DNA of 64,000 nt from Xenophilus sp. E41. GTDB lineage: Bacteria > Pseudomonadota > Gammaproteobacteria > Burkholderiales > Burkholderiaceae_C. The stretch is taken from positions 457,366 through 521,365 of the forward strand of contig NZ_QPIB01000012.1 in NCBI RefSeq assembly GCF_003671765.1, read 5' to 3'. The translations under genes and the position numbers were made by a program. The notes under the pieces were generated by a model. It worked only from the letters and a program-made list of their open reading frames with translations. It was not told where the DNA came from and did not search any database. Of this stretch, positions 36,061 through 44,770 are shown one piece after another; the first letter of the stretch is position 1, and every line of letters starts with the position of its first letter.

Positions 36061-37356
36061 TCAGGCCGCCTGCAGCTGCTGCGCCGCCGTCCGCTGCGCC
36101 GAACGCCCGGCTGCCTGCGCGGCGATCGCATCGCCGAGGAAGGCCGCGTCGCGCGCGATGCCCGAGAAACGCCCCGAGCCCCAGGTGTGCAGCCAGGGCA
36201 GGCCGAGGAAGTACAGGCCCGGCTCGCGCGTCACGCCGCGCAGGTGCACCGGGTGCCCGCGGCCGTTGAAGACCGGCGCGTCCACCCAGGCGAAGTCCGG
36301 CGCGAAGCCGATGCACCACACCACGCTGGTGATGCCGGCGGCGGCCAGGTCGAGCCGGGTGCGCTCCTCGGCCGGCGTCCACACGGGCTCGTACACCGAG
36401 GGCGGCGGCGCCTCGATGCCCTTCGCGGCGATGTGCTTGTCGATCGAGGCGTTGATGCCGTTGTAGATGCGGTCGGCGTGGTCCAGGTTCTCGCGCAGGT
36501 TGGGCAGGAACTGCAGCGCGCCGTCCTCGAAGCCCTCGAGCTGGCCGTACAGCTGCATGCCCTCGCGCGCGAAACGGCGCAGGTCGATGTCGCGCCCGCC
36601 GTCCCGGCCGGTGACGTAGTGGTTGGTGTTGTCGCGCACGCCCTCGCGCAACGGGTGCTGCGTGACGGGCATGTCGTAGTAACCCATGTCGGCCAGCCAG
36701 TCGACCACTTCCTTGCCCCGGTAGAAGCGCGCGCAGCGCGGGGCGTTGCCGGTGGCCAGCACCACCTGCCGCCCGGCCAGGTGCAGGTCCTCGGCGATCT
36801 GCGCCCCCGACTGGCCGCAGCCCACCACCAGCACGGCGCCCTCGGGCAGCTGGGCCGGGTTGCGGTACTGCGCCGAGTGGTACTGCACGACGGAGGCCGG
36901 CAGCTTCTCGGCCATGCGCGGGACCACGGGCTTGTGGTAGCCGCCCGAGGCCACCACCACTTGGTCGGCCGTATAGAGGCCCTCGCTGGTCTGCACCTGC
37001 CAGCGCTCGTGCTCGCCGGCGCGCGACACCTTCTCCACCGACACGCCCTCGATCGCGGGCGCCTTCACATGGTCGACGAAGCCCGCGAGCCAGTCGTTGA
37101 TCTGGTCCTTGACCATGAAGCCGTGCGGATCGTCGCCCCGGTACGGCCAGCCCGGCAGCTGGCACTGCCAGTTCGGTGTGACGAGGCAGAAGGTGTCCCA
37201 GCGCTGCGTGCGCCAGCTGTGCACGAGGCTGCGCTTCTCGATCACGAGGTGGTCGATACCGCGCTGCTGCAGTTCGTGGCTGAGAGACAGGCCGGCCTGG
37301 CCGCCGCCGACGATGACGACGCTGTAGTGGCTGCGTCCGCCGTAGGGATGGGACAT
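36061..37356 (-). CDS. MSMEG_0569-family flavin-dependent oxidoreductase
   Basis: A 431-residue flavoprotein monooxygenase-like enzyme. The FAD site is [21 protein letters not shown] (about residues 12-32) and the NAD(P)H site is [17 protein letters not shown] (about 175). [20 protein letters not shown] and the final [20 protein letters not shown] match the MSMEG_0569 subgroup, found only with the Nit1-type nitrilase cluster. It is the last gene of the operon. The substrate is unknown. Confidence 0.85.
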
Positions 37357-37385
37357 GGGAGTTCCTTGGAGAAATTCGGTCGTTG

Positions 37386-37670
37386 TCAGTCGAAGGCCAG
37401 CACCGCGACCTCGGCGTCCGGCTGGTGGGCGAAGCGCCCGGCGATCTCCTCGATCTGCGCGAGCTGGTCCATGGCCTGCGAACAGGCGAAGCCGTACTTG
37501 GCACGCACCCGCTCCGACGCGATGCCCAGCGCCTCGCGCGTGCGCGCCAGGAAGTCGGGCAGCGGGTACCGCACGCCGGGCTGCAGGAAGTCCTGCACCA
37601 CCAGCGAGGGCGAGTAGCAGCGCGTCTCGCTGGCGTCGGGCCAGCGGACGTGGAAATGCATGACGGGCAT
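37386..37670 (-). CDS. MSMEG_0570-family nitrogen-starvation protein
   Basis: A 94-residue protein: [48 protein letters not shown] and [25 protein letters not shown]. This is the small partner protein of the nitrilase cluster (MSMEG_0570 type, linked to nitrogen starvation in cyanobacterial homologues). It has no catalytic motif. It lies 13 bases after the glycosyltransferase and 29 before the flavoprotein. Confidence 0.8.
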
Positions 37671-37683
37671 CGAAGGGGTCCTT

Positions 37684-42532: not shown

Positions 42533-43015
42533 TTACAGCGTCCAGGTGTCGATGATCACGGCGCCGGCCTTCTTGTGCAGCAGCACCAAGTCCAGCACGT
42601 CCAGCGGGTTGATCGGGCGGATGCCTTCGATCAGCGCGCCTTCGCCGTGGCCGTACAGCGCCTGCAGCGCGAAGCGGCAGGCATACACCTTGCCGCCTTC
42701 CTCGATGAACTTGGCGATCTGCTTGTTGAAGTTCTGGTGGCCGGGAAAGGCTTCGTCGCCGAGCGTCGGGAAGCCGCGCTGCACGCCGAGCGTGACGCCG
42801 GGGCCGTACAGCAGCACCGAGGTGTCGTAGCCCTTGCGCTTCAGGCGCGTGGCCTGCAGCAGGTTGACGAAGCCGATCGAGCCTTCGAAGGCCACGGTGT
42901 GGAAGGTCACCAGGGCCTTCTCGCCGGGCTCGGCCTTCACGTCCTCGAACACCTTCTCTTCGTAGTCGACGAGGAATTCGCCTTTCTCGTTGCGGGGGCG
43001 GGTCACGGTGGGCAT
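42533..43015 (-). CDS. MSMEG_0572/Sll0783-family nitrogen-starvation protein
   Basis: A 160-residue protein, first gene of the nitrilase operon: [72 protein letters not shown]. The fold is DsrE-like, and the pattern is that of cyanobacterial Sll0783, required for normal nitrogen-starvation recovery. CGGAG precedes ATG 43015. Function unresolved. Confidence 0.85.
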
Positions 43016-43372
43016 GGGGTACTCCGTTGGGATGGGACAAAGAGGGTTTGCGTGCCGGGCCGAAGCCGCGTCGCCGCGCCGTTCTCTTCGCATCCGATGT
43101 GCCAGCCGCGCAGGGCCGCCGTGCGATCAAGCTGCGATCAACACGCAGCCGCGCGGCGCGGCGTGCCGAAAAAAATTTCCCGACCCCGCAAAGCGCCGGC
43201 CCGCGGCCGTCGTGCGGACGCGCCGGTGCACCGATCCGACGCGCCGCGCATGCGATCAATGCACCCGATCAAGGGGGTTGATCGCACCCGATCGATGCGC
43301 CCTTCCCCTCCGGCGCGGGCATGCTTTCTGCACGTTGATCGGTGTGTGCATGCAATCAATGGATGCAATCAA
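43016..43372. promoter_or_regulatory. Divergent regulatory region with eight TGCGATCAA-like motifs
   Basis: The spacer between the nitrilase operon and the MocR gene holds TGCGATCAA at 43122, 43133 and 43251; CCCGATCAA at 43264; TGCAATCAA at 43351 and 43364; and the inverse TTGATCGCA at 43278 and TTGATCGGT at 43335. Within each direct pair the spacing is 11, 13 and 13 bases. The copies at 43251 and 43278 form a perfect inverted pair. The last copy ends at the start codon of the regulator. Confidence 0.75.
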
Positions 43373-44770
43373 GTGAACGCGCCTTCGATCACCACCCACT
43401 GGCGCCGGCAGCTGCGCGCCAGCGCCAAGCCGGCGTACCTGCTGCTGGCGGACCTGATCGCGGACGACATCCGCACCGGCCGCCTCACCGTGCGCGACCG
43501 GCTGCCGACGCTGCGCGAACTGGCGGCCGACCTGGCGCTCAACTACACGACGGTGGCGCGCGGCTATGCCGAGGCGCGCAAACGCGGCCTGATCGACTCA
43601 CGGGCCGGCACCGGCACCTTCATCCGATCCGGCTCGCCGAGCCTGCGCCTGCGCGGCGGCAGCGGCGCGGAGATGACGATGAACATGCCGCCCGAACCGG
43701 CCGACGAGCACCTGCTCGCTCGCCTGCACGAGGGCATGGCGCGCGCCTGCGCGCAGGCCGACTTCTACGGGCTGATGCGCTACCAGGACTTCGGCGGCGC
43801 GCCGCAGGACCGCGAGGCGGCGATGCGCTGGCTGCGCCCGCACGTGCCGGATGCGGGTGTCGACCGCATCCTGGTGTGCCCCGGCATCCACAGCGTGCTC
43901 ACCGCCCTGTTCTCGCTGCTGGCGCGGCCGGGCGAGCTGATCTGCGTCGAGTCGCTCACCTACCCCGGCGTGAAAGCCATCGCCGCGCAGCTGGGCGTGC
44001 AGCTGCATGCGCTGCAGCTGGACGACGACGGCCCGATCGCCGACGCCTTCGAGCACGCCTGCAGGACGCTCAAGCCCAAGGCGCTGTACTGCAACCCGAC
44101 CCTGCTGAACCCGACCACACTGACCGTCTCGCGTGCGCGGCGCGAGGCGCTGGCCGATGTTGCGCTGCGCTATGCCGTGCCGATCATCGAGGACGACGCC
44201 TACGGCATGCTGCCGCGCCAGATGCCGCCCGCCCTGGCCACGCTGGCGCCGGCGCTGACCTACTACCTCACCGGCTTCGCCAAGTGCTTCGGCGCCGGCC
44301 TGCGCACGGCGTACGTCTGCGCACCCACGGCACGGCTGGCACAGCGGCTGGCGGGCGCGATGCGGGCAACGACGGTGATGGCATCGCCGGTGACCAGCAC
44401 GCTGGCGACGATGTGGGTGGAGGACGGCACTGCCGACGCGATGCTGCAGGCGGTGCGCGCCGAATCCGTGGCACGCCAGGCGCTGGCGGCGCGCCACCTG
44501 GGCGAGCACGGGCTGCAGGCGCATCCGGAAGGCTTCCACGCCTGGCTGCCGCTCACGCCCGGCTGGAGCCCGGTGGAATTCGCGTCCTACCTGCGCACGC
44601 AGAACGTCGGCGTGGTGGCAAGTGCGGCCTTCTCGACCGACGGCGATCCGCCCGAGGCGGTGCGCATCTGCCTGGGCGGCCCGATGGACCGCGAGGACTG
44701 CGACGAGGCGCTGCGGCTCATCGCCGACACGCTGACGCACCCGCAGCACCCGCACGCGACGCTGGGCTGA
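43373..44770 (+). CDS. MocR-type regulator (GntR HTH fused to PLP aminotransferase)
   Basis: A 465-residue regulator from GTG 43373; no in-frame ATG is near. The winged helix (about residues 10-80) shows YLLLADLIADDIRTGRLTVRDRLPTLRELAADLALNYTTVARGYAEARKRGLI. The aminotransferase part has the PLP Lys in YLTGFAKCFGAGLR and the Asp in VPIIEDDAYGML. MocR proteins sense an amine or PLP ligand. Divergence from the nitrilase operon and the motif array between them make it the likely controller of both. Confidence 0.9.
   Translation: MNAPSITTHWRRQLRASAKPAYLLLADLIADDIRTGRLTVRDRLPTLRELAADLALNYTTVARGYAEARKRGLIDSRAGTGTFIRSGSPSLRLRGGSGAEMTMNMPPEPADEHLLARLHEGMARACAQADFYGLMRYQDFGGAPQDREAAMRWLRPHVPDAGVDRILVCPGIHSVLTALFSLLARPGELICVESLTYPGVKAIAAQLGVQLHALQLDDDGPIADAFEHACRTLKPKALYCNPTLLNPTTLTVSRARREALADVALRYAVPIIEDDAYGMLPRQMPPALATLAPALTYYLTGFAKCFGAGLRTAYVCAPTARLAQRLAGAMRATTVMASPVTSTLATMWVEDGTADAMLQAVRAESVARQALAARHLGEHGLQAHPEGFHAWLPLTPGWSPVEFASYLRTQNVGVVASAAFSTDGDPPEAVRICLGGPMDREDCDEALRLIADTLTHPQHPHATLG

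Follow-up and report, generated by a model that had tools for sequence, protein, structure and literature searches.

The Nit1C operon and its divergent MocR gene

The stretch analysed here, 64,000 nucleotides of Xenophilus sp. E41 (contig NZ_QPIB01000012.1, positions 457,366 to 521,365; hereafter the window, whose own coordinates are used throughout), comes from a genome of 5.84 Mb and carries a full nitrilase operon of the Nit1C type, eight genes on the minus strand at 36061-43015, next to a divergently oriented gene for a MocR regulator. All eight encoded families score above their curated NCBIfam cut-offs, given below in bits as score/cut-off. The first gene, nitB (42533-43015, ATG start), encodes the MSMEG_0572/Sll0783 nitrogen starvation response protein (TIGR04044, 282/110). 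It is followed by nitC for a Nit6803-type nitrilase (41483-42532; TIGR04048, 586/503), nitD for the MSMEG_0568 variant radical SAM enzyme (40450-41568; TIGR04043, 602/304), nitE for the MSMEG_0567 GNAT N-acetyltransferase (39880-40440; TIGR04045, 233/68) and nitF for the sll0787 AIR-synthase-like protein of the PurL/SelD/ThiL superfamily (38876-39883, ATG at 39883; TIGR04049, 476/321; Pfam AIRS and AIRS_C). An optional member, the MSMEG_0565 GT4 glycosyltransferase (37684-38883, ATG at 38883; TIGR04047, 481/260), precedes nitG for the MSMEG_0570 family protein (37386-37670; TIGR04042, 133/80) and nitH for the MSMEG_0569 flavin-dependent oxidoreductase (36061-37356; TIGR04046, 677/498). All seven conserved Nit1C families are present and their order is kept, with the flavoprotein last as in proteobacteria.

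The gene starts of the operon and of mocR were checked codon by codon, which gives overlaps of 4, 8 and 86 base pairs (bp) and gaps of 0, 9, 13 and 29 bp at the operon junctions. An earlier note on this DNA had described an eight-gene Nit1C-type operon with a divergent MocR gene, tightly coupled by overlaps of 4 to 86 bp and gaps under 30 bp, and both statements are borne out. For comparison, stretches of at most 9 kb on each side were collected from the best 80 of 431 relatives by nitB similarity, a sample that is not an even draw and is referred to below as the named loci; the nearest of these best 80 belong to Variovorax. Since 51 of the 71 named loci that hold all seven other genes have the same eight-gene order, the arrangement is far from chance.

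Judged by sequence, the catalytic features of both the nitrilase and MocR are intact. The nitrilase carries E47, K129 and C163, which we take to be the catalytic triad, and its closest solved chain is 3wuy ('Nitrilase', E 1.8e-157). The usual radical SAM motif is CX3CX2C; in NitD it reads CX9CX2C and is joined by a C-terminal CX2CX2C, and the cysteines concerned (132/142/145 and 358/361/364) are invariant in 82 of 82 aligned rows. A search for solved structural relatives of NitD returned none at E ≤ 0.001.

The MocR gene (43373-44770, plus strand, GTG start) encodes a GntR helix-turn-helix domain followed by an aminotransferase class I/II domain (Pfam Aminotran_1_2). Every one of 132 rows has K304, D274, N246 and Y277, and R431 is present in all 87 rows that reach it; from aspartate-aminotransferase numbering we take K304 to be the lysine that binds pyridoxal 5'-phosphate (PLP), D274, N246 and Y277 to be pocket residues and R431 to be the carboxylate arginine. 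Because these residues are kept, the ligand is likely to be amino-acid-like. With its domain pair, the PLP lysine and pocket residues, and a candidate direct-repeat operator adjoining the gene, the protein has the features of the MocR/GabR subfamily.

MocR accompanies Nit1C across genomes

Linkage of this MocR to Nit1C is strongly supported by gene order. MSMEG_0572 was found above its cut-off in 16 of 150 genomes of the family (own included), and a divergent MocR gene adjoins it in all 16. A larger family draw yielded nitB in 49 of 399 genomes, at 51 places; 49 of these places have a divergent MocR gene within 700 bp, at least one in each of the 49 genomes. Draws from the order, class and phylum contained MSMEG_0572 in 15 of 399, 4 of 369 and 16 of 398 genomes and add 13, 3 and 11 further Nit1C genomes, respectively, with MocR within about 2 kb in 13, 2 and 10. 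In total, 74 of the 76 evenly drawn Nit1C genomes have MocR no more than about 2 kb from the cluster. The partnership is seen across betaproteobacteria and reaches alpha- and some gammaproteobacteria.

The reverse search gave the matching picture: an ortholog of at least 54% identity occurs in 17 of the 150 family genomes, 16 of which hold Nit1C, and all non-orthologous MocR matches at E ≤ 1e-60 are at most 39% identical. A MocR match is also present in the fetched stretch of every one of the 80 named loci (one of just 39 residues, at a contig end), as a divergent neighbour in 73, downstream on the same strand in six and 4.2 kb upstream in one. The flanks are rarely held in common, with only 4 of 44 flanking open frames of at least 200 codons matching anything among the named loci. 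The earlier note would have regarded MocR as an accidental neighbour had it been missing beside the cluster in relatives; the gene-order search went the other way, and this linkage, together with the ortholog counts and the few common flanking frames, rules that reading out.

In the two Nit1C loci where no MocR was found nearby, the upstream neighbour is a GGDEF/EAL protein (L116/L171) or the divergent neighbour is a PAS-sigma-54 activator (L131/L172). One genome (L167, G1272:C40:41500-50000, and L168) has two nitB copies about 4.2 kb apart and a single MocR gene, beside one of the two; a further nitB copy in genome G1440, its second, lies close to the end of a contig and has no MocR match. 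The window's genus holds two unlike versions of the unit, with MocR either 92-96% or 57% identical to that of the window, and in another genus MocR is 86% identical (L156, L157, L159 and L002 against L009). The Nit1C-MocR unit may move horizontally between genomes.

A predicted operator array at a sigma-54-type promoter

The region between nitB and mocR was compared across 163 nitB promoters, reduced to 133 by removal of those with shared 12-mers. A half-site matrix was built from 107 of these promoters; the candidate half-sites (ATGCRATCAAT) are arranged as direct repeats. The training promoters contain 528 half-sites of at least 8.5 bits vs 45 in dinucleotide shuffles, and strong half-sites pair at 11 bp (89 pairs) or 13 bp (111 pairs), the next spacing being 22 bp (19 pairs). 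Three operators are predicted in the window on the plus strand: A, an 11-bp direct repeat at 43121-43142 (GTGCGATCAAGCTGCGATCAAC); B, a 13-bp direct repeat at 43250-43273 (ATGCGATCAATGCACCCGATCAAG); and C, a second 13-bp direct repeat at 43350-43373 (ATGCAATCAATGGATGCAATCAAG), which touches the predicted mocR start codon. Across the whole set A is called in 116 of 133 promoters, followed by a 13-bp repeat in 77 and by a second one in 40. Among 26 held-out promoters of the same family, A was recovered in 25 and a 13-bp repeat in 22; no A turned up among 260 shuffles. The exact core at 11-bp spacing, RATCAA-N5-RATCAA, occurs once in the 5.84 Mb genome, in operator A, and the core at 13-bp spacing three times, twice in the window and once, weaker, elsewhere. 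A search of the genome with the exact cores, imperfect sites aside, found no wider regulon for this MocR.

Between A and nitB lies a putative sigma-54-type -24/-12 element reading into the operon (43089-43104, minus strand, TGGCACATCGGATGCG), which has the GG-N10-GC layout and agrees at 9 of 12 positions with the sigma-54 consensus used for scoring. An element with at least 9 of 12 matches is present in 130 of 133 promoters, vs 13 on the opposite strand and 3.2 in mononucleotide shuffles. Where A and the element were both called (115 promoters), the start of A stands 30-32 bp from the element in 94, at 41-43 bp in 14, at 53-54 bp in five and at other distances in two. Likewise, the held-out promoters place it at 31 or 32 bp in 21, at 42 bp in three and at 53 bp in one. 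On these predicted sites the distances are whole-turn steps.

Operator B is flanked by two dyads, GCACC-N5-GACGC at 43228-43242 on its left and GCACC-N5-GATGC at 43284-43298 on its right, each a candidate site for an enhancer protein of the NtrC kind, since we take the dyad to resemble an NtrC site. Counted over the 74 promoters with an A-B distance of at most 165 bp, the form GCAC-N6-G-N2-GC stands at -22 from B (within 2 bp) in 48, at +34 in 22 and at both positions in 18, vs at most one at any of nineteen control offsets.

Loci in which mocR has moved or stands without nit genes bear on the assignment of these sites. In six named loci, five from Methyloversatilis and one unclassified, mocR has moved downstream of the operon; of five such promoters, four retain both half-sites of A and of B, and in that of L033 B is complete and A is reduced to one half-site. 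Conversely, genome G105 has a MocR ortholog (64% identity), but the 16 kb fetched hold no nit genes, and a search for MSMEG_0572 gave no match in this genome. The ortholog keeps an A-type operator of 35.5 bits, and no sigma-54 element was found there at 9 or more matches; this one case therefore suggests that the direct repeat accompanies MocR, and the sigma-54-type element Nit1C. The orphan regulator (L197:7316-11888) is divergent from an MFS transporter gene and is followed by a glutamate-cysteine ligase gene. The transporter belongs to Pfam MFS_3, with EntS among its nearest NCBIfam models, although below cut-off, and the neighbourhood as a whole offers a clue to the ligand. In Rhizobium and other distant loci (L085, L094, L096, L126, L127, L129, L130 and L132) the best repeat upstream of nitB is a pair of the ATTCAAT or ATACAAT type at 12-bp spacing, which replaces GATCAA and is possibly a co-evolved operator.

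Spacing between the operators

In the 77 promoters where a 13-bp repeat follows A, the distance between A and the first such repeat falls into clusters at 99-102, 108-110, 117-119, 128-130, 139-140 and 162-163 bp, with strays at 113, 114, 122, 194 and 212 bp. When the distinct distances were set against a period of 10.5 bp, their phasing was matched by 43 of 20,000 random sets for A-B and by 28 of 20,000 for A-C (A to the farthest repeat, 40 promoters), vs 7931 of 20,000 for the control distance from nitB to A. When the period was allowed to vary from 8 to 14 bp, random sets were as phased in 51 of 3000 cases for A-B, in none of 3000 for A-C and in 2912 of 3000 for the control.

Because related genomes share distances, tips were also paired on the MocR tree and only changes of more than 2 bp were counted. 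Such changes differ by no more than 2 bp from a multiple of 10.5 bp, where chance would place 38%, in 6 of 8 pairs for A-B, 7 of 8 for A-C and 12 of 27 for the control (binomial 0.039, 0.006 and 0.31, respectively). The tree pairs lend good but not overwhelming support to whole-turn phasing.

Proposed mechanism

In combination, these features are probably those of a standard Nit1C operon that is run as one unit, with a dedicated PLP-dependent MocR looping a sigma-54 promoter. Sigma-54 polymerase would start the operon at about 43078, some 12 bp beyond the GC at 43090-43091, and under nitrogen shortage an AAA+ enhancer protein, perhaps NtrC bound at the GCACC dyads beside B, would open the promoter. 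MocR on A and B (and C) would hold a DNA loop and sense an amino-acid-like ligand via PLP, by means of the invariant lysine and the carboxylate-binding arginine. Depending on the ligand state, the loop would either separate the enhancer from the promoter or let both meet, and binding at C would shut off mocR itself. The output would be nitrogen salvage, the nitrilase freeing ammonia from a nitrile that is possibly derived from cyanide. More tentatively still, and with somewhat less than even confidence, MocR may serve as a looping architectural switch in an AND gate whose two required inputs are nitrogen starvation, relayed by the enhancer protein, and an amino-acid-like Nit1C metabolite, sensed by MocR.

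Several observations weigh against a looped sigma-54 promoter under a dedicated MocR. The two Nit1C genomes without a nearby MocR are joined by 17 of 133 promoters in which A was not called; of these 17, eight or more belong to other classes and two lack MocR. The best period was 9.4 bp for all A-B distances and 11.2 bp for all A-C distances, so that the phasing is not pinned to 10.5 bp, and the tree-pair test rests on eight larger changes per distance, two pairs being common to both tests. The window's own sigma-54-type element has just 9 of the 12 consensus positions. As for the dyads, searches did not confirm NtrC as the enhancer protein: a genome search for perfect GCACC palindromes returned 40 places vs 9 for a control in this GC-rich genome, the 15 of these 40 places examined for a nearby sigma-54 element gave no clear pattern, and two ammonium-transporter neighbourhoods did not validate the dyads as NtrC sites.

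Alternative readings of pathway and promoter

The alternative that survives best concerns the product. The cluster could be biosynthetic, making a small, nitrogen-rich acylated metabolite with the nitrilase acting on an intermediate, as the earlier note had proposed, and we regard this as a serious if minority possibility. It draws on the variant radical SAM enzyme with its second three-cysteine motif, on the AIRS-like and GNAT enzymes, and on the orphan MocR ortholog, which adjoins an MFS transporter of an exporter-type family. It also draws on appended genes. One homologous gene group is appended in at least 20 of the 80 named loci, and two members tested are TIGR04099/LnmK-like (acyltransferase/decarboxylase); in locus L080 (15824-18479), for example, an LnmK-like gene (TIGR04099/TIGR04098) follows the flavin oxidoreductase. 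The TIGR04099 family is carried by 10 of 12 genomes chosen for a test, one of which (that of L030) lies outside the twenty, making twenty a lower bound. A methylmalonyl-CoA-mutase-like gene group, one member of which was tested, occurs in nine loci, of which eight belong to the twenty. These genes may stand for additional steps of the pathway; beside the window's cluster neither an LnmK-like nor a mutase-like gene was seen, and the genome of L020, the nearest named relative among the best 80 of 431, has no TIGR04099 match. Ten extended stretches were picked for beginning at the LnmK-like gene, so that its presence in all ten follows from the choice; the mutase-like gene comes next in three, and a LysR-type group is found in six at scattered positions.

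Against synthesis stands, in these ten extended loci, the lack of any other gene group common to more than six, apart from the LnmK-like gene and its antisense frames. The glycosyltransferase is absent from 19 of the 71 named loci that hold all seven other genes, and glycosylation, listed by the earlier note as a pathway step, is therefore not a core one. Moreover, in the passages available from PMC11049912 and PMC8567248, NitC of Pseudomonas pseudoalcaligenes is linked to cyanide and 3-cyanoalanine as nitrogen sources: it is required for cyanide assimilation, its substrate is the cyanohydrin that arises by chemical reaction of cyanide with oxaloacetate, and growth on 3-cyanoalanine is reduced in NitC- mutants. 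The proposal that the nitrilase acts on an intermediate and not on free nitriles fits the Pseudomonas enzyme in so far as the cyanohydrin is such an intermediate, but as part of nitrogen salvage, not of synthesis. The biosynthetic proposal as a whole likewise gains from the appended LnmK-like and mutase-like genes and loses by the dispensable glycosyltransferase and the salvage role of NitC. The evidence fits both salvage and synthesis, with salvage weighted slightly higher.

A second alternative keeps MocR in place and dispenses with the loop. MocR would be a plain local repressor bound independently at A, B and C, and the whole turns would merely keep its dimers on one face of the DNA. Operator C does touch the predicted mocR start codon, and unpublished data cited in the available part of PMC8567248 describe a separate cio/nit4 cluster as constitutive in a P. 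pseudoalcaligenes MocR- mutant. However, A does not cover the -24 box but is clear of it by 16 bp. The operator distances, 99-163 bp for A-B in 74 of 77 promoters and 197-287 bp for A-C, are too long for contact between neighbouring dimers, yet change mostly by whole turns. Simple repression is held to be unlikely, though by no means negligible.

Less probable again is control by MocR of an unrecognised sigma-70-type promoter, with the -24/-12 element idle or serving as a second promoter. The window's cluster contains no enhancer-protein gene, and the MocR regulators treated in the available text of PMC5320631 are not tied to sigma-54. Such a reading sits poorly with an element found in nearly every promoter, mostly on one strand and at fixed turns from A; with the divergent PAS-sigma-54 activator of the MocR-less locus L172; and with the use in Pseudomonas of NitA, itself of a sigma-54-dependent type according to the portion of PMC11049912 at hand. 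That MocR is an accidental neighbour, as the two Nit1C genomes without it and the one family genome with MocR and no Nit1C might suggest, can be dismissed in view of the linkage and ortholog counts, the rarely common flanks and the operators in held-out loci.

Comparison with known systems

The name Nit1C was given, without a function, by Podar et al. 2005 (PMC1199592), as far as the available text goes, and later work has connected the cluster with cyanide assimilation and nitrogen starvation. The seven families described there are those of the window, in the same order, and a glycosyltransferase is placed between ORFs 5 and 6 in Burkholderia and Rubrivivax. The same text reports no conserved upstream transcription-factor sites, whereas a predicted array of three operators and a sigma-54-type element are conserved here in MocR-bearing loci.

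The nit1C cluster of P. pseudoalcaligenes/oleovorans CECT 5344, in the accessible portions of PMC11049912 and PMC8567248, resembles the window in its enzyme kinds and in a divergent regulator beside nitB. That regulator is NitA, a Fis-family, sigma-54-dependent protein, whereas the divergent gene of the window encodes a MocR and not a protein of the NitA type. The MocR of CECT 5344 sits at the separate cio/nit4 cluster, unlike that of the window.

Similarly, the MocR/GabR subfamily, on the available text of PMC5320631, shares the GntR and aminotransferase-like domains, and direct-repeat operators are common in it. The word 'Nitrilase' is absent from its main text, supplements aside, and that text does not describe a pair of distant operators set in helical register at a promoter of the sigma-54 type, as predicted for the window. 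In the open-licence literature searched, mostly at the level of titles and supplements aside, there was no description of a Nit1C-linked MocR, of MocR acting with sigma-54, of looping by MocR or of LnmK together with Nit1C.

A dedicated PLP-type sensor that follows the cluster turns the question of the natural Nit1C substrate into a direct ligand screen, and the promoter layout would bring sigma-54 transcription into MocR biology and allow helical phasing to be tested cleanly. The gene set itself, the inserted glycosyltransferase included, is already known from what is available of Podar et al. 2005, and what appears new is the predicted promoter layout, with MocR as a near-constant partner of Nit1C and a phased array of candidate operators.

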